Below are positions 9,486-60,799 of a DNA stretch of 64,000 bases, piece by piece (the stretch's first letter is position 1; each line of letters starts with the position of its first letter). The stretch is from Gynuella sunshinyii YC6258. GTDB taxonomy: Bacteria; Pseudomonadota; Gammaproteobacteria; Pseudomonadales; Natronospirillaceae. The stretch lies in assembly GCF_000940805.1 (NCBI RefSeq), contig NZ_CP007142.1:4006593-4070592 (forward strand), in the 5' to 3' direction. The notes below the pieces were generated by a model that worked only from the letters and a program-made list of their open reading frames with translations, searched no databases and was not told the origin of the DNA. The translations under genes and the position numbers were made by a program.

Positions 9486-9517
9486 TCCATCAAAGAAGAT
9501 TTGGGGGACGACTGGAT

Positions 9518-9540: not shown

Positions 9541-9572
9541 AGCTGACACAGAATTTTGAACACCCTCGGCTT

Positions 9573-10482: not shown

Positions 10483-10926
10483 TCAGGAACCCTTGTGCTC
10501 ACAAAACCGTTTCAGGCTCAGGTTCATTTGCACAAATCCGTCGGCGGCGTTCTGCGCCAGTTTTGTCCACATAAATCTGATCAGGAAGCCGTCGTATTCT
10601 TCGCGGTTGATCAAACGACAGCGGTGTTCTGAGATACTTTCCAGTTCCAGTGAATGGGTTCCGGCGAAGATGCTCTTCAACAGGAATTTGCCAAACCAAC
10701 GGATGTTTCTGCCTTCTTCTACGGCAAGCACATTGGCTTTGAAATTCATTGAATCCTGATTCGGGAATGTCACGCTGATGTGCAGTTCGCTGCCCACTTG
10801 GGGTTTTCCCTGGATACGGGTTAAAAACGGGTTCCACTGATGATACGTATCGAAATCGAGCAGTACTTTCCAGACTTCCTGAATCGGGGCATCGATTTCA
10901 ATTTCAGTTCTGACTTCACGTCCCAT
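10483..10926 (-). CDS. SRPBCC-family protein (START/polyketide-cyclase-like fold)
   Basis: 147 aa. The N-terminus VRTEIEIDAPIQEVWKVLLDFDTYHQWNPF is the signature of the SRPBCC helix-grip fold, and the length is right for a single domain. Such proteins bind hydrophobic ligands in a deep cavity. Members act as cyclases or dehydratases on polyketides or as simple binding proteins. It is the last gene of the PKS operon, starting 5 nt after the trans-enoylreductase with its Shine-Dalgarno inside that gene. A role in binding, cyclising or modifying the polyketide is inferred from position only; it could equally be a housekeeping lipid-binding protein co-transcribed with the cluster. No terminator was found downstream. 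Confidence 0.75.
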   Translation of the reverse strand: MGREVRTEIEIDAPIQEVWKVLLDFDTYHQWNPFLTRIQGKPQVGSELHISVTFPNQDSMNFKANVLAVEEGRNIRWFGKFLLKSIFAGTHSLELESISEHRCRLINREEYDGFLIRFMWTKLAQNAADGFVQMNLSLKRFCEHKGS

Positions 10927-10931
10927 ACAAC

Positions 10932-12290
10932 TTACACCTCTGTCAGTAAAAACTGGTTAACATGATCCTGAGCGCCCTGCATCAGTTTATGGGCAATATC
11001 CACAACATGTCGGTTGCGCCATGATTCCAGCGCGGTTCCTTTTACCCATTGGTTAAATGCGCCCAGGGCCGGGCCACTTTGCACCTGATAGTTCACCCGC
11101 TGGGATTGTTCTCCCCGCAATGCCATGCGGGTGCCATGCACGAAGTACCATTTAAAGATCAGGGCCATTTTGTGTTTTGGAGAGCTGGCGGCTTTGGTGA
11201 TCTCCTGTGGCCGGTGGCGACGATAGAAGGCTTCAGTTTCTGCCCAGATATCGCTGATCTTACGGGCGAAGATCTGTTCTTCCAGTTTGCTGATAACGTC
11301 TGCCGGAATGCTGTCTATAGCATCGTAATTGCGGTACAGCTCGTACAGTTTATTGGCCCGAACATGGAACAACGTGCCTTTTTTAAGAACCTGAACTTTG
11401 GCACCCAGTTCGAACATGTCACCTGCGGGAACGATGGCCATATCCTGGGGTTGGGCTTTTTCGAGCATGTTTTTAACATCCTCACTGATGCCGGCTTCCA
11501 CGGTACATTGGTTAATGCTGCCGGTAACGACGAAGTCAGCCCCCAGCATAAATGCAGCCGCCAGTGCATGAGGGGTTCCGAGACCGCCGGCGGCCCCTAC
11601 TCTGACCGGGCGCGGATATTCAAAGCGGCGGTTATATTCATCAGCCAGCAGGCGAATGGCTGGAAATAACACCGTCATCACCCCCTGGTCAGTATGGCCA
11701 CCGGAATCGGATTCCACGCAGATATCATCGGCCATGGGAACCTGAGGTGCCAATTGTGCCTGGGCCGGGGTGATCAATCCCTGTTGCAGCAGGGAGGCAA
11801 CTTTGTCATCAGGCGGCGGTGATAAAAACCGGGCTGCCACTTCAGGCCGCGAGACTTTAGCGATGATTCTGTTTCGGCACAGGGGTTTTCCATCCGGGCC
11901 AGCAGTCAATCCCGCCACACGGTAATACACCAGCGCTTCGGAAATACTGATGTATGACGCCGCTTCAATCACACTAATACCATGTTTGAGATACAGCTGA
12001 ATCAGCGCGGTTTCTTTTTCCGGTTCTTCAAAATTACTGAGCATGTTCATCCCAAACGGCTTATCCGCGCCGGCCGCCTGTTTGATGTTGACAATACTGC
12101 GCTCCACTTCGTCGAACTTCATCCCGCCGGTACCCAGAAAACTCAGCATGCCCTGACTGGCCATGGCAATCACCAGTTCGGCCGAGGCAATGCCTTTATA
12201 CATGGCACCTGCCACATACGGATGCCGGACCCGATACTCACGAAGAAATTCCTTACTACCCAAATGAATAAACCGCCCGCGCGAATTCAT
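10932..12290 (-). CDS. PfaD-family trans-acting enoylreductase
   Basis: 452 aa, the usual size for stand-alone trans-ERs of trans-AT PKSs and PUFA synthases. The FMN-binding TIM barrel of the 2-nitropropane-dioxygenase-like superfamily is seen as FLGTGGM near 50, DDICVESDSGGHTDQG (about 188-204) with the conserved SGGHTD segment, VGAAGGLGTPHALAAAFMLGADFVVTGSINQ (about 230-260), and an all-helical C-terminal region. It would reduce alpha,beta-double bonds on ACP-bound intermediates using NAD(P)H. None of the three PKS proteins contains an in-line ER, so this is the only visible source of saturated carbons. Strong ribosome-binding site (GGAAGGGG) 4 nt before the ATG; 20 nt from the ABC permease gene. 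Confidence 0.92.
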   Translation of the reverse strand: MNSRGRFIHLGSKEFLREYRVRHPYVAGAMYKGIASAELVIAMASQGMLSFLGTGGMKFDEVERSIVNIKQAAGADKPFGMNMLSNFEEPEKETALIQLYLKHGISVIEAASYISISEALVYYRVAGLTAGPDGKPLCRNRIIAKVSRPEVAARFLSPPPDDKVASLLQQGLITPAQAQLAPQVPMADDICVESDSGGHTDQGVMTVLFPAIRLLADEYNRRFEYPRPVRVGAAGGLGTPHALAAAFMLGADFVVTGSINQCTVEAGISEDVKNMLEKAQPQDMAIVPAGDMFELGAKVQVLKKGTLFHVRANKLYELYRNYDAIDSIPADVISKLEEQIFARKISDIWAETEAFYRRHRPQEITKAASSPKHKMALIFKWYFVHGTRMALRGEQSQRVNYQVQSGPALGAFNQWVKGTALESWRNRHVVDIAHKLMQGAQDHVNQFLLTEV

Positions 12291-12310
12291 AAAACCCCTT
12301 CCTTTAACAG

Positions 12311-13036
12311 TTATTTCAACGCATTGGATCTGTAGCGTTTTAACAACACCCAGCAGATCACCCAGGAATACACCAAGCCGGTCACCAGGCAGGCCATAAA
12401 TGGAGCTGTTTGTTCAGCCAACCCATACTGATAGGCTTTGATGACCCAGAAAAACGGAAAAATACCGGCAATCCAACTGAGTTTGCTGGCAGCAAAAAAA
12501 TACAGCACCAGCATCGGCACCAACAGCATGAAGCCGGTGCTTTTCATCATCGCAAATCCTTCCAGTGTGTTGCGGGCGATACCGGCAATCATCAATGCCT
12601 GTAACGGAATCTGCCAGGCCGCCACGCATACCAGTAACAACAGGCTGATCGCATTGATTGATACCAGGCCCAGCAGTTGATGCACAAAATAAGTCATTAC
12701 GATGGCAATGATGGCGGTAATCACAAAGCGGTAATAGAGATACCGGTCATTGTTCAATGGCGTTACGGCAATAGCCCGAAAAACTCCCTGCTCTTTTTCC
12801 TCCAGTAACTGAAATCCCAGTACGATGCCCATGTTCATCGGTGTTAGCAGGGCAATGGCCAGGGTTGTAATCCAGGCATATTGTTGCAGTGCGATGTCTG
12901 GATAGTGTTGTCCGCTGTAGACCCAGGCAGCCTTAACGATCAATGCCGTGACCCAGGGAGCGATGTACATGAACACCATAAAAGAGTCACTGATGATGCG
13001 CTTGGCATCGGTTTTGAAAATCTGTGTAATGACCAT
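12311..13036 (-). CDS. ABC-2 type transporter permease
   Basis: 241 aa starting MVITQIFKTDAKRIISD. A frame open to 13081 exists, but the ATG at 13036 has GGAG 8 nt upstream and sits 2 nt after the stop of the preceding gene, so it was chosen. Six hydrophobic segments are visible, with the EEKEQGVFRAIAVTPLNNDRYLYYRF loop between helices two and three, which is typical of ABC-2 permeases contacting the ATPase. With the neighbouring permease and ATPase it forms a heterodimeric exporter in the inner membrane. Position inside the PKS operon argues for export of the polyketide or self-resistance; this is inference. Confidence 0.85.
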   Translation of the reverse strand: MVITQIFKTDAKRIISDSFMVFMYIAPWVTALIVKAAWVYSGQHYPDIALQQYAWITTLAIALLTPMNMGIVLGFQLLEEKEQGVFRAIAVTPLNNDRYLYYRFVITAIIAIVMTYFVHQLLGLVSINAISLLLLVCVAAWQIPLQALMIAGIARNTLEGFAMMKSTGFMLLVPMLVLYFFAASKLSWIAGIFPFFWVIKAYQYGLAEQTAPFMACLVTGLVYSWVICWVLLKRYRSNALK

Positions 13037-13038
13037 GA

Positions 13039-13722
13039 TTATTTCTCCACCATTGCTTTGGGATAGGCATGACGCAACCACAGATAAAACACCACCAGCC
13101 AGAATGCGGCAGTGGCCATATTGACGATGGATAAGCCGCCATACTGGGCATTATCGGAAAACATCATGGTCAGCCCGAACGTCGGCATCAGGTAAAACAG
13201 CGGATGGTAATAAAGCTCAAAATAAGAAAGATATGGCAGCAACCATAGTGGACTGACCAAGCCGATGCGAACGATGAGCCGGCTGACATTCGGCGCATAA
13301 ATAACCAGCAGATAACCGATGATGGCATAAATGGCGGAATTCAAAGCGCAGATGAACAATAGCTCCAGCAGTTCTGTCCACGGCACATACAACACCACGA
13401 TCAGACAACTGATAACCGTTGTCACCAGGCAGATCAGAATCACCCGGGTCCATACTTTGAGGGTAAAGTTAAGCGGTGTTACCCCAAAAGCCAACAGCAC
13501 TTTCTGACGGTTTTCGAGCAGATGCAGGCCCATACAGAACAGCAACGCCACCGAGGCCACATCCATGGATAACACCAGTCCCAGCACTTTCATGGAATAA
13601 CTTTGCGGGACAAACGCCAGCACGCTGAACCAGAGCACAGTCACGATGGCCGCCACCACCAGAAAACCCGAGCGTGCCTGGAACAGAATTTCAGCTTTTG
13701 ACAGAGCAAGCCACTGATTCAT
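13039..13722 (-). CDS. ABC-2 type transporter permease
   Basis: 227 aa with about six membrane helices (strongest at 17-37, 43-65, 93-117, 121-144, 146-170 and 196-217). HLLENRQKVLLAFGVTPLNFTLKVWTR is a cytoplasmic loop with the TPLN motif shared with the second permease (ITPLNNDRYL there), suggesting the two arose by duplication. The start codon overlaps the ATPase stop (ATGA, 13719-13722), so translation is probably coupled. Partner of the genes on both sides in an exporter of the small-molecule type. Confidence 0.85.
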   Translation of the reverse strand: MNQWLALSKAEILFQARSGFLVVAAIVTVLWFSVLAFVPQSYSMKVLGLVLSMDVASVALLFCMGLHLLENRQKVLLAFGVTPLNFTLKVWTRVILICLVTTVISCLIVVLYVPWTELLELLFICALNSAIYAIIGYLLVIYAPNVSRLIVRIGLVSPLWLLPYLSYFELYYHPLFYLMPTFGLTMMFSDNAQYGGLSIVNMATAAFWLVVFYLWLRHAYPKAMVEK

Positions 13723-14570
13723 GTCAGACGCACTCCTGTCAGTTCGATGAATACCTGTTCGAGGCTGGCTTCCAGACTGTGAATGGTCTGGATATCGTGT
13801 TGTTTCAGCAGTTCAGTAAAGTCAGCGTTGTGACCAATGTCGGTCAGATCGAACACCTGTTTACGAACACTGTCCCGTTCTTTGTATGTGACTTCCACCT
13901 GACCTTTACCGTACTGCTGTTTCATCTGATACGGCGAGTCGATGTTACGGATCTCACCGCCAGCGATAAAACCTACGGTGTCACACAGCTCCTCAGCATC
14001 ATGCATGTTGTGGGTGGTGATAAAGATGGTAACCCCTTGCTCCCTAAGCTCTTTGATGTAGTCCTTGAGCTTCATGCTGTTGGTGGGGTCGAGTCCGGAG
14101 GTGGGTTCGTCCAGAAACAACAGATCAGGTTTGCCCAGCAACGAACGGGCGAAATTAAGGCGCATTTTCATGCCTTTGGAAAAACTCGAAACCCGTTTAT
14201 CTTTATCTTCCAGCAGCCCTACCCGCTCAAGCAGATATTCCGGTGAATTGGAGGTCGCATACATGGCCGCAAACAGGCGCAGGTTTTCCAGCGCGGTCAG
14301 CGATTCATAGTGGTTAGGCAGCTCGAAGCCCACGCCGATTTTTTCGTAGAGGTTACGCCCCCAGTCATACACCTCTTTGTCGTGAACTTTTACCTGCCCC
14401 TGGTAGCCTTTGAGCAGCCCGCACAGAATTTTTTGAGTGGTGCTTTTGCCAGAACCGGAAGGTCCGAGGAAGCCGAAAATTTCGCCCTTGGAAATATCAA
14501 AACTCAAGGATTTCAAAACCTCTGCCTGTCCTGTCTGATAGGAAAAACGCAAATCTTTAACTGATATCAT
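13719..14570 (-). CDS. ABC transporter ATP-binding protein
   Basis: 283 aa. Walker A GPSGSGKST (about 36-44), signature SSFSKGMKMRLNFARSL (about 134-150), Walker B LLFLDEPTSGLDP, and switch histidine in FITTHNMHDAEE are all present, so it should hydrolyse ATP. The C-terminal 60 residues form the extra domain common in drug- and antibiotic-exporting ABC-2 systems. It lies 60 nt downstream of the thioesterase, the largest gap in the operon, with only a weak Shine-Dalgarno. It energises the two permeases encoded immediately after it. Confidence 0.92.
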   Translation of the reverse strand: MISVKDLRFSYQTGQAEVLKSLSFDISKGEIFGFLGPSGSGKSTTQKILCGLLKGYQGQVKVHDKEVYDWGRNLYEKIGVGFELPNHYESLTALENLRLFAAMYATSNSPEYLLERVGLLEDKDKRVSSFSKGMKMRLNFARSLLGKPDLLFLDEPTSGLDPTNSMKLKDYIKELREQGVTIFITTHNMHDAEELCDTVGFIAGGEIRNIDSPYQMKQQYGKGQVEVTYKERDSVRKQVFDLTDIGHNADFTELLKQHDIQTIHSLEASLEQVFIELTGVRLT

Positions 14571-14630
14571 TAAGTTAGCTGTCCGTTAGGTAATTTGAAT
14601 CAATAATGGTCTGCATCAGCATCGAAACAT

Positions 14631-15419
14631 TTACGATACCTGCCCTCTGACCATCGAATATCGTTCCATTGAATCACGAACATGAGTGACTATTCCTTTC
14701 GCGACAGCATCAATAGACTGGTTAATATAAAAGTGCCCTCCTGGCCAGGACCTGAACTCTTTCTGAATTGCAAAAAAGCGATTCCAGCCGACCACATCCT
14801 GTAATGGTGAGTAGCTGTCATCCGCCCCGCCCCAGATCACTACAGGTGTCATCAATGGCCGATCAGGCTCACACTGATAAGATTCGAAAACCCGCATATC
14901 GGTTTTGATGGCTGGCAGAAACAGTTCCATCATTGCGTCATTCTCCAGGATCTCGGCAGGGATACCATCGTAAATTCTCAGGCGTTGCAGAAAATCACGA
15001 TCAGGCAGATGAGACATGGGGTTGTGATTGGCGATGTCCGGTGGACGGCTGGCCGACATGATGACCATACGTGGCAATGCCTGTTTGAGAGTTTGCAGTT
15101 GCCGGCACAGCGCATGCGCCACTCTGCCGCCCAAACTATGGCCAAAGAGGTACAGAGGTTTGTCAGTCAGCATCGGCAAAAACTCACAGATATCCTCGAT
15201 CAGTTCCGCCACCGACTGACACAAAGGCTCCGAAAATCTCGTCCCGTGGCCAGGCATCTGATACACCAGCACATCGATATCGTCCGGCATGCGTTTCAGT
15301 AACGGCTGATAAGCCGCAGCGCTGCCGCCGGCAAATGGAAACATCAATAATCGGGCATCGGCCTGATCATTTAACTGCATCCGGAAAAACCGGCGGCGCA
15401 TGGCGTGTTCCGTACTCAT
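14631..15419 (-). CDS. Type II thioesterase
   Basis: 262 aa alpha/beta-hydrolase. Markers are LLMFPFAGGSAAAYQPL, YQMPGHGTR, the nucleophile elbow FGHSLGG with S95, the acid region WGGADDSYSPL, and the histidine in PGGHFYINQ. This is the RifR/GrsT-like editing thioesterase family, which removes stalled or wrong acyl groups from carrier proteins. Its start overlaps the monooxygenase stop (ATGA, 15416-15419). Distinct from the thioesterase domains at the end of the third PKS. Confidence 0.92.
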   Translation of the reverse strand: MSTEHAMRRRFFRMQLNDQADARLLMFPFAGGSAAAYQPLLKRMPDDIDVLVYQMPGHGTRFSEPLCQSVAELIEDICEFLPMLTDKPLYLFGHSLGGRVAHALCRQLQTLKQALPRMVIMSASRPPDIANHNPMSHLPDRDFLQRLRIYDGIPAEILENDAMMELFLPAIKTDMRVFESYQCEPDRPLMTPVVIWGGADDSYSPLQDVVGWNRFFAIQKEFRSWPGGHFYINQSIDAVAKGIVTHVRDSMERYSMVRGQVS

Positions 15420-16534
15420 ACGCCCATGGATTCCCGCTGGTAATACCAGGAAAGCGGATGTTTCGGTTGTCGTACCGGTTGCGCCTGTGCGACCGGCTGG
15501 TCACTGGTAAACACCGCTTTGACTTCGTCCAGTTTCGGCAGCGCTGCGAGTACCTGATCAAAATCCAGACCAAAATCGATAAAGCAGGCCACCTCATCGG
15601 TGCCGACTTTTTGCAGCCGACGGGCAAACTCGACACATTTTTCCACGGTGCCGAACATGGCCCGTTTTTCAAACATATCGTCAAACACGGCCTGCAACAG
15701 AATTTCTTTTTCTTCACTGCTGACGACCCGGGCCTGATTGCCGCTGATGCTCTTGTCATCGTTGGTGGCCTTTACGAACTCGGACAGATACTGCTTCATT
15801 GGTTTTTCCACCAATGCTTTGACTTCGGCATTACTGTCACCCACAAACGTATGCACCGCCGTCGTCACGATGCCGGCCGCCGGATCCAGGCCGGCATCGG
15901 CCCTGGCCTGCCGGTAGGCAACGATGTTGCTCTCCAGTGCTTCCCAGTTATTCAACAATGACAGGATATTCAGACCCAGCCGGCCGGCATCTTTCCAGAC
16001 CTCGGGACTGGAGCTGGATACCAGCCATATCGGTATCTCCATCTGAATCGGCCGCGGATGCACCGTGACTTGAGTCATTTCACCATCAACACCCTTGAAC
16101 TCCATGGCGTCGCCAGCCCATAAACGGCGCAGATCGGCGATTCCCTGCAAGGTGATGGCTTTACGATCCTGATAATTTTCAGGAAAGAACACAAAATCAC
16201 GTTTATGCCAGCCGGAAGCAATGCCAACACCGGTACGGCCATTGGAAAGCTGATCCACCATGGCCCACTCCTCTGCCACCCGTACCGGATGGTGATGCGG
16301 CAGCACCACACAACCGGAACGCAGATGCAACCGTGAAGTTGCCTGAGCCAGCGCGGCGGACAACACGGAAGGATTGGGAAAGGAGCCGCCAAATTCCTGA
16401 AAATGACGTTCCGGTGTCCACAATGCCTGGTAACCATGTTCATCCAGATAACGCGCGGCATCGGTAATAAAACGGTATCGCTGCTGTACGGAAAAGCTGT
16501 CTTCGGCTGAGAACACAAATCCACTGAATTCCAT
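15416..16534 (-). CDS. Luciferase-like (LLM) flavin monooxygenase of the natural-product type
   Basis: 372 aa. The sequence (FVFSAEDSF, LWTPERHFQEFGGSFPNPS, SGCVVLPHHHPVRVAEEW, GRTGVGIASGWHKRDFVF) matches the MupA/Atu3671 group of FMN-dependent luciferase-like monooxygenases, which occur as free enzymes or in-line domains in PKS and NRPS systems. It would use reduced FMN and O2 to oxidise a carrier-bound intermediate, commonly by hydroxylation next to a thioester or by oxygen insertion. The exact reaction cannot be read from sequence. A strong Shine-Dalgarno (GAGGAG) lies 6 nt before the ATG, 14 nt after the third PKS gene. The C-terminal 30 residues look like a flexible tail. Confidence 0.9.
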   Translation of the reverse strand: MEFSGFVFSAEDSFSVQQRYRFITDAARYLDEHGYQALWTPERHFQEFGGSFPNPSVLSAALAQATSRLHLRSGCVVLPHHHPVRVAEEWAMVDQLSNGRTGVGIASGWHKRDFVFFPENYQDRKAITLQGIADLRRLWAGDAMEFKGVDGEMTQVTVHPRPIQMEIPIWLVSSSSPEVWKDAGRLGLNILSLLNNWEALESNIVAYRQARADAGLDPAAGIVTTAVHTFVGDSNAEVKALVEKPMKQYLSEFVKATNDDKSISGNQARVVSSEEKEILLQAVFDDMFEKRAMFGTVEKCVEFARRLQKVGTDEVACFIDFGLDFDQVLAALPKLDEVKAVFTSDQPVAQAQPVRQPKHPLSWYYQRESMGV

Positions 16535-16548
16535 CGTCGACTCCTCGT

Positions 16549-19500
16549 TTATCGATTTTGACCGGAAGACCGGGCAGAACGTGCATCTGCCATGTCATCC
16601 AGTATGGTTTTGGAAATCTCAATCAGTTTGCGGTCGTGGCAGATGGAATAATGATCCGCCTCCACATCAATGATATGCATGTTGCCACTCACATATGACG
16701 CAAACCCGTTGGTACGATCCTCTACGTTGATGCGCACCTCCGGCATGCCATAGATATTGTCTTTGGCGATAAATCCTTGTGTGGCATGAAACATCAACAC
16801 CTCGACAGAATCTGCCAGCGGCTTGGGCTGATAGGACAACAATGCGTCATTATTGGTCAGAATGGTGTTGTAGTTGTTTTCCACCAACTGGTAAATCTCC
16901 TGGTAACCGAGATTGGTTTTACCGGTTTGCAGAAAGCGACTGACTACATCGATCTGTTGACTCAGGGGCATGCCATCGACGTGTTCCAGTTTCAGTTCTG
17001 CATCGATCTTGAATCGACGGCCAAAGTTATTGGCAACCAGCAGCAACGCCATGACATCAAAATTTTCCACTTCGACATTGGAAATATCGATGGCATTGAA
17101 GGTATCCGTATTCGGCATAAACGAATCGATCATGATCAGTTTCTCTACGGCTTTTCCTTGTGCGGTCAGCTGCCGGCACATTTCATAGGCCACCACCCCG
17201 CCAAAGGAATATCCACCGATGATATAAGGGCCTTTGGGGCGTTCGGTCTGAATGCTTTCAATGTAGTGAGAGGCCATCTGTTCAATGGTCGGCAGCAAGT
17301 GCAACTCCCCTTCCACGGTAAACTGTTCGATGCCGAGCACCGGACAGGCCTTGCCCAGATGGTGGGCCAGGTTCAGGGTAAAAGACACATCACCGAACAA
17401 GGTATGGACCCAGAATGTGGGCGTATGCGTGCCTTCGCGGTTGACAAATACCAGCGGGAAATCATGTTGCTGCGACGGCGGCTGAACAGTGTAGATCTGC
17501 TGATACTGCTCCACTGCCAGCATGCTCAGGCATTCTGTGGTATTCAGCCGCAATACAATGGCCGGCGGAACCAATACCTTGGCGAGATTGATTTCTTCAG
17601 CCTCGTAAGACAGCACGATCTCGCTGTCATGGGCATTGACCCAGACCGGGGGCTGATACTGTCTCAACAGGGGTAACGACCACTGCACCGTGGTCATCAG
17701 ACCATCGAACCAGCCATCAAATGCGGTTCGCGGCATTACCTCTTCAGCCATCCGCTGAATTTCATGAATCAGCTGCGCCTCATTCAGAGTCGCCAGTTGT
17801 TCATTCAGACGGCCGGTCCAGACCACCGCGCAGGTATTCGCGAGTTCCGCCAGATAAGTAGTCTGTTCCAGTCCGGAGACGTTTTTGGGATCAATAAATT
17901 TCAGATGAATAGCACTATCCAACTGCTGCTGAATGGTCTGTGCCAGTCCGACGGCAAAACCGGCCATATGGCCTTTGGTCAGGATCACCAGTTCGTCAGC
18001 CTGAATCGCGCTGACATTGTTGGTAATGGCCGTCAGCAACTCCGCCATCGAACCGATGCGATCATTGAGTCGCCATTCCAGTCCGAACATCTGCACATCC
18101 TGAGAATGATTCATCCAGTTCAGAGCCCAGGTCAGTTCACCACTGACATCCGGTAAAAACAACCACACGGTGTTGCTGGCAGAGGTGCCGAAACGGGTGA
18201 GCCGGACATTGATGACTTCACGTTTGCCGGCCACGGCCGGAACCTCCGAACGGTCTGCCTCGACGGTGGTATGCTCTTCGATGTAGGCACTCAGACGTGC
18301 TACGGTCGGCTCTTCGATGATTGCCGACATCGAAATGTTATCACCGTAACGCTGCTGCACTTTCTGCATGATGCGCAGGCCGATGATGGAATCGATACCA
18401 TATTCCGGAAACGCCTTGTCAGCCCGCATGGCCTCGCTGCTGATATCCAGGGCCTCGCGGATGATGGTGCTCAACTGCTGTTCGATCTGCTGCCGGAAAC
18501 TCAAGGGCGATGCCGGTTCTGAGGCGCTGACAATCACAGCAGCAGCAACAGGAGCGGGCTCCGCCGGCTCGACAGTAACATTTGCAACCGCCGGGACCGG
18601 CTGACTGGATTCCACGGCGGCCACCGGTGCAGGTGCTGCCACTTCGGGCGCACTTTGCCGGGCTGGCTCAACCGTCTCCGGTGCGGCTGTGCTGTTCTGC
18701 TTACCAATACTGCTCTGTTTGCCGGCAGGATTCGGCCAATAGGATTTCTCCTCAAACGGGACCGCCGGAATGGAGATGCGCCGGCCATCATTCTGACACG
18801 GCAATGCGACCGGTACCTGGCTGACCCACAGACGCGCCAGTTTATCCCAGTTCTGTTGCCGCACTACGTTATCGACCACAGAGCTCAGATCAGCCGGATC
18901 CAGCAGCCGGTTCAGAGCGGTTTGATCCGTACCACTGACATATACTCCGGTCATTTCATCATGTTGCCCTTGCAGATAACTGTCCATCGCGGCCACCAGC
19001 TCATGTACATCGCAGACGACACAGGCCAGCCGGCATGGGTCCTGGCTGCGGGCGCTTTGCAGAGTAAAACAGATATCCGCCAGCCGGATCTGTTGCTGAT
19101 GACCCAGCCACGTCCTGAAATGCTGTACAAAGGCTCGTAACCGGGTATCCGACAGCGCGCTGAACGTGGCAATGCAGGGGCCTTCAAAACCGCTGTATTC
19201 GGGGATTTCCGGTAGCGCTGCTTCCGTCACGATGACATGGGCATTAACACCACCAAAACCGAATGAGCTGATACCCGCTGTGCGTGGCAACCCTGGTGCG
19301 GTACGCCAATGCGTCAAGGACTGGTTGAGATACAGCGAGGAACGACTTAAGTCCACCAGCGGATTGACTTCCTTCAGTCCGCTGATTGCCGGGATCAGCT
19401 GATGCTGCAGGCACAGCACGGTTTTAATGAGTCCGGCAATACCGGCGGCGGTTTCAAGGTGGCCGATATTGGTTTTGACCGCGCCAATGGCACAGGGCAT

Positions 19501-44765: not shown

Positions 44766-44774
44766 GTCTGGATT

Positions 44775-50700: not shown

Positions 50701-53700
50701 AAGTCATCCGCACGCTGTTGCATCAAACGTTCATCATGCACAGTTCCGGCGGTATGGATAATGCCGTCAAGCTTGCCAAAACGATCCAGGATCTGTTGCC
50801 GGATCGCCTGACAATCACTCCAGACATTAATATCACCCTGCATGTACAACACGTTTTCCGGTAACGGCTCAGCCTGTACCAATGCAGCTTCCCGTCGACC
50901 ACTGAGAATGACCGTTGCCTGATAACGCTGTTGCAACTGGCCGGCCAGAGCACGGGCAACACCACCGCTGCCGGTGAGCCAGTAGACTCCACCGGATTCA
51001 AACCCCACGGCCGTGCCAGAAGGCACTGGAGACGGTACTGGAGCCAGCGCCTGCCAGCGCAGACATTCAAGCTGGTTATCCGAATAACGGAAACTAATAG
51101 CTCCAGGAGCAGACAGCAGCTCAGTCAGCACCTTGGGAAAATCCGCGAGGTGTTGCAGTCGCAATGTCTGCAACTGAAATTGATCGGTTTCATGCATCAG
51201 CGCCCGGGACAATCCGGCATAGGATTCACCGAGGGCATTTTGAGTAACCTCATTGCGATCTTCCCAGACCACAAGATAGCGGGTATTGACCGGAAACTGC
51301 CGATAGATATCGAGTAGCGGCAGATGATTCTCGAATGATTGACCAGCCGATATCAGATCGATGACCAGTCGCTGTGAATGTTGCAACTGGCGTTCCGTCA
51401 GACGGTTGATATCTGATGATGACAAAACCTGAACCGTGGCACCGGACAAAGATGCCGGTAGCTCTACTGGCAGCTTACCTTCGTCGGTCAGTATCAATAC
51501 ATCAGTGTCGCTGGTGACCGGATCAGCATCAGTCTGACACGCTACTGCCTGCCAGACCGGGCCGTAAAAATCAGCACCCTGCGATTGCGCAGATTTGCCG
51601 GCCAACAGCGTTAAGCCCTGTAGCATTAACAACGCCCGTCCCTGCTCATCGTAAAAACCGATGTCGCAGGTCATGCGCTCATTACCCGCCTGCTGAATAG
51701 TGGCCAGGCTATAGACCGAGTCCGGCCACCGGGTTTCACAGAAGACCACTCGATCACAGGCAAATGGCAGTAATGTTTGTGCTGCCTGATTAAAAATAAT
51801 AGTGGTCTGCAAACCGGCATCCAACAGAGCGGAACACAGCGCCCATGGTTCTGTTCCGGTTGCCGATCGACGGGTCAGATATCCCAACACCTGATGGTCG
51901 TTGTATCGAATCCATTCGACACATTGCAGTCCTGGCCCGTAGTGAAAACCCTGTTGGATCAAACGCTGATAGCATTGATCATGATCGAGCGCTGAAGCGA
52001 ATGTATGCATCAGGTTTTCGGGATTAATCGACGCCGGCGTGGCACTGACGCTATCGTCAAGCCGACATCTGGCGTAAACCGTTGCCGCACTATCCGTTAG
52101 CACGTATCCGTTTTCCAATGCAGAAATATGCAGTGTTTGCTGAGCCTGGACAGAAAAGCTCAATGGCCGCATCCACAGCATTTGTTTCAATGCGAATGAG
52201 CGACCAGGCTGGACTTCATGGCGTAACCGTGACTCTAGTGCCGCCAGATAGCTGACGCCCGGCAGAATGCATTGGTGGTCAACCACATGATCGGCGACAA
52301 AATAATCAGACACCGACAGCGGTATGGCATCATTGGCCACTTCCGGATGCTGGGGAGGTCTGCTGCTCTGCCAACGGGCACCTTCCACCCACTGTCGCGT
52401 TCCCATGAACGGATAGCCCGGTAACCGAATGCGGACGGGAGCCCCGTGTGGTTGCTCATGTATCCGCCATCCCCGGTGCCAATTCAGGCTAGCACCCTTA
52501 ACCCAGATGTCAGCGATTTTTCGGATATTGCCCTGACTCAACCACTGCTGTACGAGGATATCGCAGTCGCTGAAAATATCGGCAACATTCTGATAGTCCT
52601 TGATATCCGCACAGACACATTGGTTGTCATGATTTTTCATGTCTACCCAGGCAGACAATTGTGATACCAACTGTGTAACCGATGCGGCCATGAACGCGGC
52701 GCGATATCTGAACTCATCTCGGCCGGTTTGCAGGGTATAGGCAATGGCGGGCAATGAAAGGTCATTCTCATACCGTAACAAGTGCTCATGCAACTCCCGG
52801 ATCATGGTTGTCAGGGCAGCTTCACTTTGTGCCGACAATGGAATAATGAGCTGTTCTGACGGACCTGTAGCCTCAAGCCTCGACAGCTGCTGATCGGTCT
52901 CATATTCCTCCAGAACAATGTGCGCATTCACACCGCCGGCGCCAAAGGAACTGACTCCGGCGCGCCGAGGATGTTTATCGGATGTCCACGGCGTCAAGGT
53001 ACGAGGTACGTCGATTCGGTACTGATCGAACTCAATACGATGATTGAGTGTCTCAGCATGAAGTGATGGCACTAACATTTTGTGTTGGAATTGCAACACC
53101 ACTTTGGTTAGCCCGGCAATGGCAGCAGCCGGTTCCAGATGCCCGATATTGGATTTGATACTGCCGACAAAACAGGGCGCGGCCGTGCTTTGCTCGCGGT
53201 TCAGGGCACTGGCGATACCTTCCACCTCAATGGGGTCCCCTAGTGGTGTTCCGGTACCATGGGCTTCGATATAACTGATGCTGTCTTTATCGATGGCAGT
53301 TTTGTTCAATGCAGAACGAATCAGCTCTGCCTGTGCCAGCGGATTCGGCACGGTAAAACCGCTGGTACGACCGCCGGAATTAACATGGCTGGATAAAAGT
53401 GTTGCGTATACCTGATCACCATCCAGCAGCGCTTGAGCAAGAGGTTTGAGCAGGACACACCCGACTCCCTCCCCCATCACCATGCCGGAGGCCTGATCGG
53501 AAAAACTGCGACATAATCCATCCTTTGACAGCATTTGCATCTGGGAATATTGAATATGACGCTGAGGATGCAGAATCAGGTTCACACCGCCGGCCAGCGC
53601 CTGGGAACATTCTCCCTTGCGAATAGCCTCACAGGCCATGTGCAATGCCACACCAGAACTGGAACAGGCGGTATCGATGGTGATACTGGGGCCGGACAGG

Positions 53701-56700
53701 TCCATAAAATAGGACACCCGATTGGCGATCTGATACAGATCAGCATACGGAAACGGAACCTTTCCTTCAGCCACCAGACCCGCACACAGGCTCTGATAAT
53801 CTTTGGCCATGGCACCTGCGAATACCCCGGTATCTCTGGCAATCGTTTCGCGATTGTAACCGGCAGACAAAAGGCACTCATAGGCAATGGTCAGAAACCA
53901 GCGCTGCTGGGGATCCATCAGACGGGCATCTTTTGGGGAGATGTTGAACAATGTAGTATCAAACTTGTCCACATCGTCAATCATTCCGGCAGAATTACTG
54001 TAGCTCTGACCAGAACCGGTTTGTTCAGGCACGTAGAGTTCGCGATGGTCCCAGCGCTGTTCAGGAATATCACCAATACAACAACGACCTTCAAGCAGTA
54101 ACTGCCATAACTGATCGACATTGGCTGCACCGGGATAACGACCGGCGATCCCGATGATGGCCACCCGATCATCAGGTGCGACGGTATTTTTTGAAGCCAC
54201 GACAGGTCGGGATGTCGGCTGCGGTATCAAAGGCTCGGGTGTGACAGTTGCGGCTATAGTCACACCCGTATCAGCGTGCTGATCAGCAAGATCCCGGCGG
54301 ATCTTTGTCAGTAAGTCAGTCAATGTTTTCAGCCCGAACAGATACGTACTGGAGAACTTGCAAGCAAACTCCCGGCTCAGCGCGACCGTCAGGTTCACCA
54401 TCATCAGCGAACTCAGAGACAGCCTGTCAAATGGGGTGTTTTCGTTGACCGGACCATCGAGATTTACAACGGTGTCTTCAATCACCGTTTTCAGTCTTGG
54501 CCAAATATCGGCCGCAGGCGTCGGCACGGTGCTGGTAACAGCTGCTGGCTTCATGGGTGAATCTGATGTTTCAAGGGTGTGGCTTGAGACTGACGACAAC
54601 TGCCCCGGCGTGGCTGTTAACAGCCATTGATAGAAACGGTTTTCTGCCAGCACGGAGGTAGTGGACACAAGCGGATTTTTCGAAACCGGTGCAGACGATT
54701 CATCATCCGCCGTGACATCCTGCATCTGCACCATTCGCAGTGCATCGCGTGTCAGTTCAAAATCACCGTCTTGCTGCGCGGTAAATCCTGCCTGGGGAAA
54801 CAGCCGCTGCAAGAACTCCAATGCCGGCACATTTTTGGCCGATGGCCGGTAGCGGATCATCACGTTGGACGCAGGCAATACATCGGATTCGCCCAAATAC
54901 TTCAACAGGGAGTATTCAACCCCACGACCCAGTACCCGACAACTCAACAACAGGTTATCCAGATAAAGAGTGCTATCAGCCCGATGGGCGAACAGAGCGC
55001 CAACCAGGCCATAATCGCCGAATTTATCCCTGACCTGCACCGTCCAGCAGGCTTTGTTGGCATCATCACAATAATCACGTACGGCACTTTCATCGAGCCG
55101 TAACGTGGTCAGATTGAATTGATTGGTTTTATTACTGAGCTGCGAAACTCTCGGTACAGCCGCCAATGTCAGCGGCTGTATATCCAGCTCTATGTCCAAT
55201 GCCTGAATATATTCCAGCAATGAACTTTTGGTGGATTTGATCTGTTGCCGCTGCACCTGTCCCTGATACATTTCCGTACGGCGGCGGTCTTCCTCAGTAA
55301 CGGTCAGACGATCAGCAAACCAGAACCTGTCGAGCAGATCAATAATTTGATCTGAGGCAGGAATGCGGACACATAAAACACCTTCCAGATTTTGCTCTAC
55401 TTCCAGAATTTCGACCGGGTTGTCATCCAGAAATACGAAGCTGTCGAGACCAAGATTCAATTCTGTCGCCAGACTGCGGATGTTGTCTGATTTAGGCTGC
55501 CAGTTGACGCGCTCGCCAGTAATGTGTCTGCGCTGCAACACCATGTCCTTACGACCGGCGAAAACCGCTTCAACGTCTTCGGAGTTGTTCTTACTGCACA
55601 GACACACCAGAAAACCCTGCTCCACCATGGATACCAACCGGGCCTGTAACGCCAGATGTCCGGCATCCAGGATAATGCCGTCAACACCATCTTCACCAAC
55701 CACCCCGGACCACAAAGTATTGTCGCAATCACACACGATTACTTTTTTCGGACTGAATCTGACGGCGCACAATTGCCGGATAATGGCTCGGGATATATCA
55801 GCATAATGGTGATCAAGATAAGGAATGTGAGCCATTTCATTACGCAGCTCATCATCGGGAGGCGGACTGTTATGATCCATGATACGAAAATAGACCGAAG
55901 CCAGCCCGTGGCAGGTCTGTGTCAGACGTTCACTGAAGCGCTGTCTGAACGACGCATATCCTGGCATTTGTTCCCAGCTGGCAGAATCACGACACAACCA
56001 GACAAATAACGGAGCATGTCCATGATACTGACTGATGGCCTCACAACACTGCCCGACATACTGATCAACGGCTTGTGTCAGTGCACTGGAAATATCATTG
56101 TTGTCTGACTCATCGTCATCACGATAATGCACGGCATCTTCCAGCCGTAGCAACAACACATTGGCAATCGAAGTCTGGCGATAAAACGGACTGTCAGGTG
56201 CCAGACAAGTCTGCACCACCTGGCCATAAGGTGCCAGATGCAATTGCAGAGAACGCTGACAGGCATCGTTCAGACGGGTATTGGTTAACCAGATATCCAT
56301 TGCCTCTGCGATGGGATCAAGCGTGAACGATGAAGCGATAGTCATCACACCGGATTCCGGCAGGGTCGATGTCGGCGGCAAATTCCCGATATGAGCTACT
56401 GCTGACTGTTCGAATCGGTCGATCAGGGCATAACACCCTGCTTCAGGTTCGATAGTCTGCAGCGCCGTCAGTACGCTCAGGGCAGCCTGTTCTGGTGCTA
56501 ACAAGCGTTGCTGATTACCCATTGCATACACCAGATCGGTACGCATCTGCGGCAGTCGAACGACATACCATTGTCGCGCGTTGGGTTTTAGTACCAGACT
56601 CGCAATCAGGCTTTCCATTCCACTTTTGGCGGCCACGTAGTGAGGCCACGCTGCGACGGGATGCTCCACTGCAACGGTTGAAATAAAGATGAGTTTTGCC

Positions 56701-57941
56701 TGTTCCGAAAAAAAAGAAGCCAGCTCGGTCAGGGGTGTCAATAGCATTTGAAACGAACGATCGAGATATTCAGAAAATGCAGTCTGATTACCACGGTTCA
56801 GATCCATGCTGTGCAATGCTGGAGTGGCGGAAAAAAACACATAATCGATGTTTTGTTGATTGGCAGCCAGTTCACCTGTTAAATCGGAATAGGTTTGTGG
56901 ATGACTGCAATCCCCTTGCACCGGCACCAATCGATGACGAACAGACTCTGGCAAGACAGCTGCCAATTGTTGCATCCCGGCAACACTTTTGTGGTAAACA
57001 CCGTAAACTGTGGCCCCTGCAAGCAGGCAGGCCGAGGTAAGGCAGGCACCCAGTCCACGACTGGCACCGGTTATCAGGATATTCTTTCCTGCCAAGGCAG
57101 ATCCAAATTCAGCAGCCGCCGTCAAACGGGAAAAATCAGGCAAACTGCTGACCGGACGAAACAATGCTCTCAGCTCGGCATTGACAAATCTGACACCATC
57201 ATGAGAGAGCATGATTTCCTGGTTGATCAGATCAAACTCTCTCTCCAGACTAACGACCCGACTGCTACCGGTCAGGCATTCTATCGGGCATTTCAGGAAT
57301 GACTCGGTAAAAGTCGCATTGAATCCACTGAATAAAGCCTGTTGTCCAGGCAGTCTCATACCTATCCAATAACTGGAGAATGCCATCACAGCGGCCACAT
57401 TGGTCAATGCCACCGTCATTGGCATCTTCAACTGTTCACATAATTCCGAAAGTACGGTCCAGCGTGGCTGATAGTCGATATTGAACTCATCGCCAGTATT
57501 AATCTGTTCTGCATTGACCAACACAGGAACGTCTTCTACATCTGTACCGTACTCGTTATCGGATGCGCTCTCCCGAATGTGATGTTGTATATGTCCGACA
57601 TAATTTAGCTGACATTCCAATAACAAAGAGTCAGCATCAAACAATTGAATGCGGGATTTGTCATCGCTGAGGGCCTGACAACGAAGAGTGTAATTACAAC
57701 CAATACGAACGGCAGATAGAAACTCTGCCTTCAGGGATGTGAGCTTCAGATGTTCAATACCTTCCACTTTGGCCAGCATCGCCATGGCAGCCAGGCCACC
57801 GTAACAGATGGGTGTGGAAAATGGGGTTTTTCGGGCATAGCTTTCATCCAGATGCAAAGGGTTAACATCCCTGCTGAATCTGGCAAATGCGTCAACCATG
57901 TTCTGAGAAAGCAGAATTTCGGTGTCGGATAATTTCATCAT
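44775..57941 (-). CDS. Trans-AT PKS, first protein (loading module, modules 1-3a)
   Basis: 4388 aa. Order: MaoC-like hotdog (1-115; D25-x-N-x2-H30 dyad); probable second hotdog (about 130-270); SDR (TGASRGLG from 291, Tyr435-x3-Lys439); FkbH-like HAD domain (DCDNT 738-742) with its C-terminal NQFN region (about 965); ACP0 (Ser1178 in LSLSSL); KS1 (Cys1426); DH1 (His1885, Asp2041, His for Gly in HxxxGxxxxP); KR1 (TGSGGVA from 2323, Tyr2458); ACP1 (Ser2610); KS2 (Cys2883); KR2 (Thr3537, Tyr3680); ACP2 (Ser3834); KS3 (Cys4078), ending at the C-terminus. FkbH domains dephosphorylate 1,3-bisphosphoglycerate to load glyceryl on an ACP. The hotdog and SDR beside it could convert glyceryl to lactyl. 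Shine-Dalgarno AGGG 7 nt before the first ATG. It is the first gene of the ten-gene operon. Confidence 0.95.
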   Translation of the reverse strand: MMKLSDTEILLSQNMVDAFARFSRDVNPLHLDESYARKTPFSTPICYGGLAAMAMLAKVEGIEHLKLTSLKAEFLSAVRIGCNYTLRCQALSDDKSRIQLFDADSLLLECQLNYVGHIQHHIRESASDNEYGTDVEDVPVLVNAEQINTGDEFNIDYQPRWTVLSELCEQLKMPMTVALTNVAAVMAFSSYWIGMRLPGQQALFSGFNATFTESFLKCPIECLTGSSRVVSLEREFDLINQEIMLSHDGVRFVNAELRALFRPVSSLPDFSRLTAAAEFGSALAGKNILITGASRGLGACLTSACLLAGATVYGVYHKSVAGMQQLAAVLPESVRHRLVPVQGDCSHPQTYSDLTGELAANQQNIDYVFFSATPALHSMDLNRGNQTAFSEYLDRSFQMLLTPLTELASFFSEQAKLIFISTVAVEHPVAAWPHYVAAKSGMESLIASLVLKPNARQWYVVRLPQMRTDLVYAMGNQQRLLAPEQAALSVLTALQTIEPEAGCYALIDRFEQSAVAHIGNLPPTSTLPESGVMTIASSFTLDPIAEAMDIWLTNTRLNDACQRSLQLHLAPYGQVVQTCLAPDSPFYRQTSIANVLLLRLEDAVHYRDDDESDNNDISSALTQAVDQYVGQCCEAISQYHGHAPLFVWLCRDSASWEQMPGYASFRQRFSERLTQTCHGLASVYFRIMDHNSPPPDDELRNEMAHIPYLDHHYADISRAIIRQLCAVRFSPKKVIVCDCDNTLWSGVVGEDGVDGIILDAGHLALQARLVSMVEQGFLVCLCSKNNSEDVEAVFAGRKDMVLQRRHITGERVNWQPKSDNIRSLATELNLGLDSFVFLDDNPVEILEVEQNLEGVLCVRIPASDQIIDLLDRFWFADRLTVTEEDRRRTEMYQGQVQRQQIKSTKSSLLEYIQALDIELDIQPLTLAAVPRVSQLSNKTNQFNLTTLRLDESAVRDYCDDANKACWTVQVRDKFGDYGLVGALFAHRADSTLYLDNLLLSCRVLGRGVEYSLLKYLGESDVLPASNVMIRYRPSAKNVPALEFLQRLFPQAGFTAQQDGDFELTRDALRMVQMQDVTADDESSAPVSKNPLVSTTSVLAENRFYQWLLTATPGQLSSVSSHTLETSDSPMKPAAVTSTVPTPAADIWPRLKTVIEDTVVNLDGPVNENTPFDRLSLSSLMMVNLTVALSREFACKFSSTYLFGLKTLTDLLTKIRRDLADQHADTGVTIAATVTPEPLIPQPTSRPVVASKNTVAPDDRVAIIGIAGRYPGAANVDQLWQLLLEGRCCIGDIPEQRWDHRELYVPEQTGSGQSYSNSAGMIDDVDKFDTTLFNISPKDARLMDPQQRWFLTIAYECLLSAGYNRETIARDTGVFAGAMAKDYQSLCAGLVAEGKVPFPYADLYQIANRVSYFMDLSGPSITIDTACSSSGVALHMACEAIRKGECSQALAGGVNLILHPQRHIQYSQMQMLSKDGLCRSFSDQASGMVMGEGVGCVLLKPLAQALLDGDQVYATLLSSHVNSGGRTSGFTVPNPLAQAELIRSALNKTAIDKDSISYIEAHGTGTPLGDPIEVEGIASALNREQSTAAPCFVGSIKSNIGHLEPAAAIAGLTKVVLQFQHKMLVPSLHAETLNHRIEFDQYRIDVPRTLTPWTSDKHPRRAGVSSFGAGGVNAHIVLEEYETDQQLSRLEATGPSEQLIIPLSAQSEAALTTMIRELHEHLLRYENDLSLPAIAYTLQTGRDEFRYRAAFMAASVTQLVSQLSAWVDMKNHDNQCVCADIKDYQNVADIFSDCDILVQQWLSQGNIRKIADIWVKGASLNWHRGWRIHEQPHGAPVRIRLPGYPFMGTRQWVEGARWQSSRPPQHPEVANDAIPLSVSDYFVADHVVDHQCILPGVSYLAALESRLRHEVQPGRSFALKQMLWMRPLSFSVQAQQTLHISALENGYVLTDSAATVYARCRLDDSVSATPASINPENLMHTFASALDHDQCYQRLIQQGFHYGPGLQCVEWIRYNDHQVLGYLTRRSATGTEPWALCSALLDAGLQTTIIFNQAAQTLLPFACDRVVFCETRWPDSVYSLATIQQAGNERMTCDIGFYDEQGRALLMLQGLTLLAGKSAQSQGADFYGPVWQAVACQTDADPVTSDTDVLILTDEGKLPVELPASLSGATVQVLSSSDINRLTERQLQHSQRLVIDLISAGQSFENHLPLLDIYRQFPVNTRYLVVWEDRNEVTQNALGESYAGLSRALMHETDQFQLQTLRLQHLADFPKVLTELLSAPGAISFRYSDNQLECLRWQALAPVPSPVPSGTAVGFESGGVYWLTGSGGVARALAGQLQQRYQATVILSGRREAALVQAEPLPENVLYMQGDINVWSDCQAIRQQILDRFGKLDGIIHTAGTVHDERLMQQRADDFTAVLQAKINGARHLSQFTRQPSDPWLILCSSIAAVVGNIGQTSYAMANAWLDAMARHSVNKRIMSINWPLWRDTGMAAGAAHLVDHNQRLGFGYLQADDGLNILEQAIQHAGIDGQVVYLPGDEQKIQQAMNASLAPFWKAVSGQPVASAQTEVLDQADVAQQLLQRLFDHTNELLELPEGVLEADEDLSSYGFDSISLSDFADRLNAEFDLGISPVLFFDHPTLSGLASALLERFGEQISRCLAVPQSQAQTLTTITESVRRPEFSEAVSQTLVPTENPPLASTSSESHSVTETVSEAATAMTSTSASRDDIAVIGLSCRFPGADSPEQFWQNICDGRDLVSAVPEARFASGHKQHYAGLVEELEHFDPEFFKITGREAILMDPQHRLLMELSWQAIEHAGYHPKNLSHSRTGVFIGITLHDHLQRLYQSGQPPVSHLATGNVHCLAANRISYLFNFNGPSEAVDTACSSSLVALNRAVKAMRDGECDTALVGGANALLSDVMFNAFSEAGMLSKTGKCHTFSAHADGYVRGEGGGMVLLKPLSQAIAANDHIHAIIKGTAVNHGGHGQSLTAPSASAQARVIRQALEDARVSPSAIGYIEAHGTGTQLGDPIELEGLRQVYGGAPMQPPAYIGTVKTNIGHLESAAGMAGLIKVIMALKAQWLPKSLHGQPVNKLVNPAEQPFTFLPDGTAWQARVDEQQHPLPLRAGVSSFGFGGVNAHVIVEQAAAPTVITETPVGNQLVLVSAVTETLLRAQLTELQALIPTLKDADLPALALTSRHGRGGYRYRAAYVVSSLAQLSDAIGRTLAADSLGSGESHIARHDDASVDLKTLVQMADWQLLAARWQAGENIHWPDIEEPGAYRKMPFPLTRFNRRPCTISQLQPAVAGIVNPTPLQGDIRFFAPVWQPQTLTASVSNSRKTVLLLVPETEVLAWSTRMDDRVAHDWYVIRFAGLMPRLSKRELEIDVWAEQAFDDLLAMCAERHLQPDWIVDVCDFGPDSDSQWQARIRFLQLCVRAWSRSGLALFQISDRQSSRTRQWFTALYAGLAAEYRQISCRSVVFDQAPPFTELEPLLERELQGGDSRPVSICDGQRQILSYQLCNLPQAGQIRGLDSEAAYLVTGGLGGLGLQAATLLRQLGAKHLILLGRRQPDETRSQQLQMLSNGSAQIEYFHDLSTLAERLQQQPVRIAGVIHCAGIDTQGELAFVNKPVSAFTDCLAPKVVLAEQLVSRLTPHLDPAALTFFIAFSSVSTVVPALTAGRSDYGPANAALDQWVATMAGQYPQSGFVSVQWPSHQQGGMPVVVSDVYRDTGLANLTREQSDDILKILITLALQGRLSHSTLLPHVGDGSPVLFSKDVFEPAIKVPGEIPRPDSKGHHEAAARTLILTRLTALFARQLLVDESALQAGVPFDELGIDSILIADLVRAIESEFDCILPPSAILEYPSLGQLTEYLGELVEIDMPDTPAEPQVSSTSQTSARTIAATATTRVPGADNGEDKVAVIGMACRFPGAESVTRFWHNLEQGICSVTEVPEQRFDMGRIYAPVQQPGKSISKWGGFIDGVDLFDPEYFSIPQEQAAYIDPLTRLSLMVATEAIADAGYTREDIWGRRCGVYMGGNRGHYGLNHVDQAATATGLNQNFIAAHLAHIFNLTGPCYVMDAACASSLLSVHSAVRDLLHGDVDLALAGGVEVLLDETPYLKLSAAGALSPDGLCQTFSRHANGFVPGEGAGTVVLKRLSQAQQDGDSIYAVIEASEVNNDGHTMGLTTPNIEAQKALLERVYGHRNDVSGHLRYIEAHGTGTMIGDPIELKAMASVFAGLNIPTAQVAVGSVKSNLGHLMGAAGIASFIKTALIVKHRRIPPTLHCDEPNPRFNFSTSPLVPANIASDLRGSGQPLLAGISAFGFGGTNCHICLSNDYVAAAATRKPQPAPQFNLRSFWLKGKNAPVVGRTENTGETASKITQANTILELEWL

Positions 57942-59188: not shown

Positions 59189-59905
59189 ATGATCGTGAAA
59201 CTCATCAAAACTGCCGTCCCCTTATCTGCCGTCATCGTGCTTTCAGGTTGTCAGATCAGCAGCAAGGCACCGGGAGTATGGTATGGTGTAGCCTATGATC
59301 AGGAATCAGGCGGATACTCAGAAGTTGCCATGTTTGTCACTGAAGCCGGCGAAACCAGGATTTCAACAACGGCCGGTTTGAATATGGCCGGACTGTCAGC
59401 ATTTGATGGCGACATCCTTTATTCACTCCCCTCCAGCAACTATGGTTCCGAAGATCCGTTGAAGATCAATCCGCAAGCCAAACTGCTGATCAGTGGAGAG
59501 TTTTCGGATGCTGCTGTTACGATCGAAGTGATGGACAAAGAAAGCACCATACAAAAGCTTGATCTGGTGAAGAGTTCTGATGCCGCTGCAACACAGGGTG
59601 ATTATGCCGGAATCTGGTATGCCAATCCGCATAATCCAAGTCCGGACTATACCTGGAGCATTGACGACAGTGGCAACATTACAGGAAATGATGAATCGGG
59701 TTGTCAGTACCACGGTACAGTCAGTGCGTCATCGGCTATCAACGTCGCCGATCTCTCCCTGGTGATCAGCGAATGTGACTATTCCGGTTTTTACCTGGGT
59801 GTCATGAGTCTTTTTAATGACCCTTCTTCTGATCGTGTCGGTATTTTTTATAACTACAGTAATCACGAAAACATCTTCGTAAATGGACTTGAAAAAATTC
59901 TGTAG
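59189..59905 (+). CDS. Putative lipoprotein co-transcribed with the PKS acyltransferase
   Basis: 238 aa. The N-terminus MIVKLIKTAVPLSAVIVLSGC is a lipoprotein signal with lipobox LSGC (lipidated Cys21), and Q at +2 predicts the outer membrane. The mature part is beta-rich, Ser/Gly/Asp-rich, with two similar-looking GVWYG.. / GIWYANP segments at about 29 and 142, hinting at a repeated small beta domain. Cys172 and Cys194 could pair. I do not recognise the family. AAGGA lies 3 nt before ATG 59189 and 9 nt before GTG 59195, so either may be the true start. It precedes the acyltransferase gene by 24 nt, so the two form an operon; a role in export, storage or self-protection is possible but unproven. 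Confidence 0.7.
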   Translation: MIVKLIKTAVPLSAVIVLSGCQISSKAPGVWYGVAYDQESGGYSEVAMFVTEAGETRISTTAGLNMAGLSAFDGDILYSLPSSNYGSEDPLKINPQAKLLISGEFSDAAVTIEVMDKESTIQKLDLVKSSDAAATQGDYAGIWYANPHNPSPDYTWSIDDSGNITGNDESGCQYHGTVSASSAINVADLSLVISECDYSGFYLGVMSLFNDPSSDRVGIFYNYSNHENIFVNGLEKIL

Positions 59906-59929
59906 TCAAAAAATAAGAGGTACTTATCA

Positions 59930-60799
59930 ATGACAGATCTATGTTTATTTCCTGGCCAGGGAAGTCAGGCTCCTGGTATGGGAAAGGAGTTGTTTGATCG
60001 TTATCCTCACCTGATCAAAAATGCATCTGATTGTCTGGGGTATGATGTCAAAGATAAATGCCTGACAGCCAGCGCCAGCGATCTGGCGCGTACCGAAGTT
60101 ACTCAACCCCTGCTCTATCTTGTGAGCGCACTCAGTTATTTGCACCATGTACAGGAAACCGGTGTTGTGCCCGAATATCTGGCTGGTCACAGCCTCGGTG
60201 AATACGTGGCATTGTTCGCGGCAGGATGTTTTGATTTCATGAGTGGTCTGGAGATTGTGGCTGAACGCGGACGTTTGATGTCGGAAGTTTCCGGCGGCAG
60301 TATGTTTGCTGTCGTCGGTCTTCCGCCGGAAGACATTATTGATCAATTGAATCAACTATCATTCGATCAATTGACCATTGCCAACTATAACGATCATTCC
60401 CAGACAGTGATTGCGGGTTATTGTCAGGATGCCCAAAAACTTCAGGACAGTTTGTGTGCTGCCGGTGCCAAACATGTTATTCCACTGAAAGTCAGCGCCT
60501 GTTTTCATACTCATTATATGAAAAGTACTGCTGAACAGCTGGCGGCATTTTTGTCCCGCTACCGGTTGTCATCACCACGGATAAAAGTTGTCGCCAATCT
60601 TACCGGCCAACCCTATAAGCCAGGTGATGATGTTGCTGATATCCTGGTCAAACAGGTTTACAGTCCGGTATTGTGGCTGCAGTCAATGGAATATGTGCTG
60701 CCAAAAGTGGACAGCTGGAGCGAACTGGGTCCTGGCAAGGTATTAACCGGCATCGTAACGCGCATTCAGAATTCTCTGACCAGCTCTCCAATCGCCTGA
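59930..60799 (+). CDS. Trans-acting acyltransferase (malonyl-ACP loading) of the PKS
   Basis: 289 aa, typical of FabD-like stand-alone ATs. FPGQGSQ at the N-terminus, nucleophile elbow GHSLGEY (Ser88), the ACFH segment with catalytic His193, and the ELGPGKVLTG tail are present. The AFH-type motif near the histidine indicates malonyl rather than methylmalonyl specificity. None of the three PKSs contains an AT, so this enzyme would charge all their ACPs. Only one AT is present, with no acyl-hydrolase or second AT. It could be the cell's fabD, but its position beside the PKS and divergent from it argues otherwise. Shine-Dalgarno AGAGG 9 nt before the ATG. Confidence 0.92.
   Translation: MTDLCLFPGQGSQAPGMGKELFDRYPHLIKNASDCLGYDVKDKCLTASASDLARTEVTQPLLYLVSALSYLHHVQETGVVPEYLAGHSLGEYVALFAAGCFDFMSGLEIVAERGRLMSEVSGGSMFAVVGLPPEDIIDQLNQLSFDQLTIANYNDHSQTVIAGYCQDAQKLQDSLCAAGAKHVIPLKVSACFHTHYMKSTAEQLAAFLSRYRLSSPRIKVVANLTGQPYKPGDDVADILVKQVYSPVLWLQSMEYVLPKVDSWSELGPGKVLTGIVTRIQNSLTSSPIA

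Follow-up and report, generated by a model that had tools for sequence, protein, structure and literature searches.

Which product is made by a large trans-AT polyketide synthase (PKS) locus in the genome of Gynuella sunshinyii YC6258? The locus occupies positions 10483-60799 of the window, i.e. of the whole 64,000 nt stretch of DNA that was analysed (NZ_CP007142.1, 4,006,593 to 4,070,592); unless stated otherwise, coordinates are those of the window. The initial annotation, made from the sequence alone, had left the product unassigned and had taken the domain order for that of no known compound. Our answer is that the locus is, almost certainly, the tartrolon biosynthetic cluster of this bacterium.

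Gene content and domain order of the locus

The locus is a complete trans-AT PKS locus with 11 ketosynthases (KSs), in agreement with the initial annotation, and the ORF check found the ORFs where that annotation had placed them. Three adjoining genes, all on the minus strand, encode giant PKS proteins with 3, 5 and 3 KSs: PKS1 (TrtD-like; 44775-57941, 4388 aa), PKS2 (TrtE-like; 30168-44765, 4865 aa) and PKS3 (TrtF-like; 16549-30171, 4540 aa). Over the full length they are 54.6%, 55.9% and 57.7% identical to their counterparts in Teredinibacter turnerae, the species to which the percentages given below for single proteins and domains also refer unless another comparison is named. Domains were called with Pfam and NCBIfam, which were run both on the complete proteins and on the inter-KS segments. 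The order is MaoC-SDR-FkbH-ACP / KS1-DH-KR-ACP / KS2-KR-ACP / KS3 in PKS1, DH-ACP / KS4-DH-KR-ACP / KS5-ACP / KS6-KR-ACP / KS7-ACP / KS8 in PKS2 and KR-ACP / KS9-DH-KR-MT-ACP / KS10-ACP / KS11-ACP-X-TE in PKS3, where X is a unit of ∼240 aa. Modules 3 and 8 are split between proteins: the DH-ACP at the start of PKS2 completes the former and the KR-ACP at the start of PKS3 completes the latter, with KS8 at the end of PKS2. The scans detected no integrated acyltransferase domain in the three PKSs, and the acyltransferase of the cluster is free-standing, as a trans-AT PKS requires. No NRPS condensation domains were found within the window.

The other proteins named in the initial annotation were all borne out by family matches. 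Located 3′ of the PKS genes and co-directional with them (minus strand) are genes for a MupA/Atu3671-family FMN luciferase-like monooxygenase (LLM; 15416-16534, TIGR04020 over cut-off, 81%), a type II thioesterase (TEII; 14631-15419, PF00975, 49%), three components of an ABC exporter, a PfaD-type trans-acting enoyl reductase (trans-ER; 10932-12290, TIGR02814 over cut-off, 76%) and an SRPBCC/polyketide-cyclase-like protein (10483-10926, PF10604 (Polyketide_cyc2), 37%, or 35-37% in Teredinibacter). The ABC genes encode a DrrA-like ATPase (13719-14570, PF00005; drrA is the best NCBIfam match, under cut-off), an FLQE3-like permease (13039-13722, PF24686 under cut-off) and a putative second membrane subunit (12311-13081) that has no family. 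At the other end of the cluster a divergent pair on the plus strand encodes a predicted lipoprotein (59189-59905, no family; 62-64% identical to an orthologue adjoining the acyltransferase gene in both Teredinibacter genomes of our set) and the free malonyl-ACP acyltransferase (59930-60799, PF00698 and TIGR00128 (fabD) over cut-off, 74%).

The loading module (54490-57941, minus strand) had been described as FkbH loading. An FkbH domain is indeed present (aa 732-1046, TIGR01686); it does not stand alone, since the module also has a MaoC-like dehydratase (aa 8-89), an SDR/KR (aa 286-451) and, just past the coordinates given, an ACP (∼aa 1163-1211, 54309-54455). The initial annotation had also ended the line with two thioesterases, one of which holds: the domain at 16612-17454 (minus strand) matches PF00975, carries the nucleophile motif GYSFG and is 82% identical to that of T. 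turnerae. The presumed first thioesterase is a conserved unit of ∼236 aa that follows the last ACP and precedes the TE (17497-18204, minus strand), 57% identical in T. turnerae. Even with E raised to 10 it matches no Pfam family; it has no GxSxG motif (GHMAG in Gynuella and GYMAE in Teredinibacter), and hhalign found no similarity to the TE, which with two sequences a side is weak evidence. An AlphaFold model of the terminal 581 aa, also computed with two sequences as input, had a mean pLDDT of 41.

The remaining features of the module reading stood as well: initiation by FkbH, up to nine extensions, a single C-methyl and TE release. The two KSs called dead proved to be KS5 (37878-39056, minus strand), where the Cys is kept, HGTGT has become SGVGD and NxGH is lost, and KS10 (21355-22626, minus strand), where the Cys is kept and HGTGT has become SATGV. 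Both have the same state in both Teredinibacter genomes, and we thus regard them as ancestral non-elongating KSs. KS3 (PKS1 aa 3913-4329; 44955-46205, minus strand) has an intact triad despite its DH-only split module. KSs of such modules are often, even usually, non-elongating.

The left flank (3511-10312) has a low GC content (45%). It encodes a DpnII-MboI-type REase/Aga helical-REase-like protein, a fusion of HEPN and nucleotidyltransferase and a T5orf172/PDC-S57-like protein, and is possibly a small defence island adjoining the cluster. Beside these defence-like genes lies one for a RoxA-like cytochrome c protein (719 aa; 7326-9485, plus strand).

Orthology with the Teredinibacter cluster and position within the Gynuella genome

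Tartrolon is a boron-binding antibiotic known from shipworm bacteria. T. turnerae is a producer of tartrolon D/E; its tartrolon BGC has been described as a large trans-AT pathway, and production has been ascribed to the trans-AT PKSs encoded by trtDEF (PMC6235255, PMC7329324). One of our two Teredinibacter genomes, G289, was assigned to this species by its LPMO, which over a 204-residue stretch of the catalytic domain is identical to PDB 6RW7; the other is G210. The counterpart locus in T. turnerae lies at G289:C1:2283-2333 kb and presumably comprises the trt genes, whose boundaries we take from later papers. Over 70 kb, both Teredinibacter genomes have orthologues of every cluster gene of the window except the exporter, with order and orientation kept. 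The KR, DH, MT and TE motifs are conserved together in Gynuella and T. turnerae.

The KSs show the one-to-one relation most directly. Each of the 11 KSs in the window has the same-numbered T. turnerae KS as its best match, at 55-77% identity, while no KS outside tartrolon-type clusters exceeds about 55%, and the best of these is often below 51%. In a quick tree of 88 KSs, including 66 from the other five Gynuella trans-AT loci, each of the 11 pairs forms a group of its own with support of 100; KS3 sits on a long isolated branch. The Cys-His-His states agree at 11 of 11 positions.

We also used the loading module as a query against 391 genomes of the order, with about 1150 genomes searched overall, and among these full-length matches occurred only in G210 and G289. 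Among the genomes searched, a match to C3 FkbH loading with MaoC and SDR across the whole loading region, at 47% identity, occurred in Teredinibacter only, and the FkbH motifs agree with those of Teredinibacter. A locus search among genome contigs with PKS3 as the query returned distant trans-AT PKSs only.

The literature points the same way. A Science paper of 2024 names a ‘tartrolon BGC (tar)’ and lcn as ‘both from G. sunshinyii’, citing the TransATor paper; it assigns tar KS10 and KS13 to the minimal type of unit, ACP-KS, and tar KS11 to KR-ACP-KS (PMC11260071). These contexts are those of window KS8 (following KS7-ACP), KS11 (following KS10-ACP) and KS9 (following KR-ACP), with a constant offset of two. 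The statement on tar could cover some domains only; the host, the content and the context all agree with the locus. The view that the product is unassigned and the order novel would fall to a characterised cluster with the same module order, and there is one: T. turnerae, a characterised producer, has this order across its three PKSs, and the tartrolon BGC has been named in G. sunshinyii itself. The cluster is therefore already known, as the tartrolon cluster of G. sunshinyii, and its product is not unassigned.

The genome of G. sunshinyii (6,475,959 bp) contains six trans-AT PKS loci by our count of KS positions, the number also reported earlier (PMC11755721). Condensation domains are present in the loci at 3.76-3.83, 5.40-5.44 and 5.89-5.92 Mb. 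The locus with 17 KSs fits gynuellalide, and the giant locus with ∼25 KSs fits lacunalide by its size. Janustatin, lobatamide, lacunalide and gynuellalide were considered as products of the present locus and rejected: it has no condensation domain, its count of 11 KSs differs and none of its KSs pairs with theirs. The hybrid locus L018-L019 (C1:5403-5436 kb), with four trans-AT-type KSs and several condensation domains, is unmatched to the four named Gynuella trans-AT products and may be a true orphan. The GH46 chitosanase of the genome is the same as PDB 6LWU/6X2Q across the mature chain, bar one E-to-A position; 6LWU is the chitosanase of G. sunshinyii YC6258 (PMC8841797).

Proposed pathway and alternative readings

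From the domain states we infer each chemical step as follows. FkbH, with the MaoC-like dehydratase and the SDR, would load a glycolytic C3 unit in the form of lactyl-ACP. Nine competent KSs would then make nine malonyl additions with units supplied by the free AT, and KS5 and KS10 would hand the chain on with no elongation. The sole C-methyl would come from the methyltransferase of module 9, the trans-ER would reduce one or more double bonds and the LLM oxygenase, judged by its family, would set an alpha-hydroxyl beside the carboxyl end. The terminal TE would join two C22 chains in head-to-tail fashion, giving a macrodiolide whose hydroxyls bind boron, and the ABC genes would probably export the product. 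Tartrolons are symmetrical macrodiolides that complex boron reversibly (PMC7274485). The TE is thus predicted to be a dimerising macrodiolide TE, by analogy with the TEs of elaiophylin and conglobatin, which perform iterative dimerisation on one active site (PMC4504003); the single TE found here fits such a mechanism.

The carbon count agrees with this scheme. On the assumption that KS3, whose triad is intact, elongates, the sum is 3 + 9×2 + 1 = C22, the half expected; with KS3 silent it would be C20. Tartrolon D has the formula C44H68O14. Its monoisotopic mass of 820.461 agrees with the [M+Na]+ of 843.450 reported for tartrolon D (PMC9692312), and the formula equals two C22 halves. We expect the Gynuella product to be tartrolon D/E, not a close congener.

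The reading that competes most seriously accepts the orthology to trt and holds that divergence or extra tailoring has turned the product into a new tartrolon congener. The PKSs are only 55-58% identical, conservation is lowest for the SRPBCC protein (37%) and the TEII (49%), and T. turnerae has been reported to have analogues of tartrolon D that differ by +14, +16 and −2 Da (PMC9692312). Against this, no domain has been gained or lost and no catalytic KS residue changed relative to T. turnerae, and the LLM oxygenase and the trans-ER, at 76-81% identity, are well kept. We consider a new congener unlikely, and tartrolon D/E the better expectation. A related proposal adds the exporter. The three ABC genes (12311-14570) are inserted between the TEII and trans-ER genes in Gynuella only, with a GC content of 49% versus 56% for the PKSs; neither Teredinibacter cluster has counterparts, and the 12311-13081 protein has no homologue anywhere in the G289 or G210 genomes. 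The Listeria ABC transporter TimAB makes its host resistant to tartrolon B, which is a potassium ionophore (PMC11970672). Export of tartrolon or self-protection is a reasonable candidate role for the system. The fuller proposal, in which Gynuella makes an undescribed congener and the system is a dedicated exporter that protects the producer from its own potassium ionophore, strikes us as doubtful.

Two further readings carry far less weight. The lack of the catalytic His in KS5 and KS10 might suggest that the locus is what is left of a decayed or silent tartrolon cluster. Both Teredinibacter genomes lack the His in these two KSs too, so that its absence is ancestral, and none of the three giant ORFs is interrupted or has damaged motifs; a remnant is highly improbable. 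Even less credible, indeed nearly excluded, is the view of the initial annotation that the product is a structurally new polyketide unrelated to known compounds. In its favour we found nothing but the fact that the order had gone unrecognised, and it is opposed by the domain-by-domain match to the locus of a characterised producer, by the carbon count and by the naming of the cluster in the literature.

Relation to known systems

Assignment to tartrolon removes one supposed orphan and makes de novo structure work unneeded. As a second and well-diverged example of the tartrolon line, the locus is still useful for reference: positions that have been conserved point to what the assembly line cannot do without. 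The extra exporter of Gynuella is a candidate, open to experiment, for the efflux of tartrolon in a producer.

The nearest known system is the trtDEF cluster of T. turnerae. It has in common with the present locus the three PKSs, their domain order, the dead KSs, the loading module and the TE, together with the accessory set of AT, trans-ER, LLM oxygenase, TEII and SRPBCC protein and the divergent AT-lipoprotein pair; the divergence of the PKSs and the three-gene ABC exporter set the Gynuella locus apart. The tar BGC described for G. sunshinyii (PMC11260071) differs in numbering, with KS numbers that reach 13 versus 11 KSs in the window. The other trans-AT clusters of the species (gynuellalide, lacunalide, lobatamide and janustatin) share the genome and the enzyme class, with 0 KSs that pair with those of the window. 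An FkbH start is common to the tartrolon-type locus and to trans-AT lines of the gynuellalide/phormidolide type, but the FkbH of the 17-KS Gynuella locus is 39% identical to the one described here, in a match that is limited to residues 629-1072 and lacks the MaoC-SDR part.
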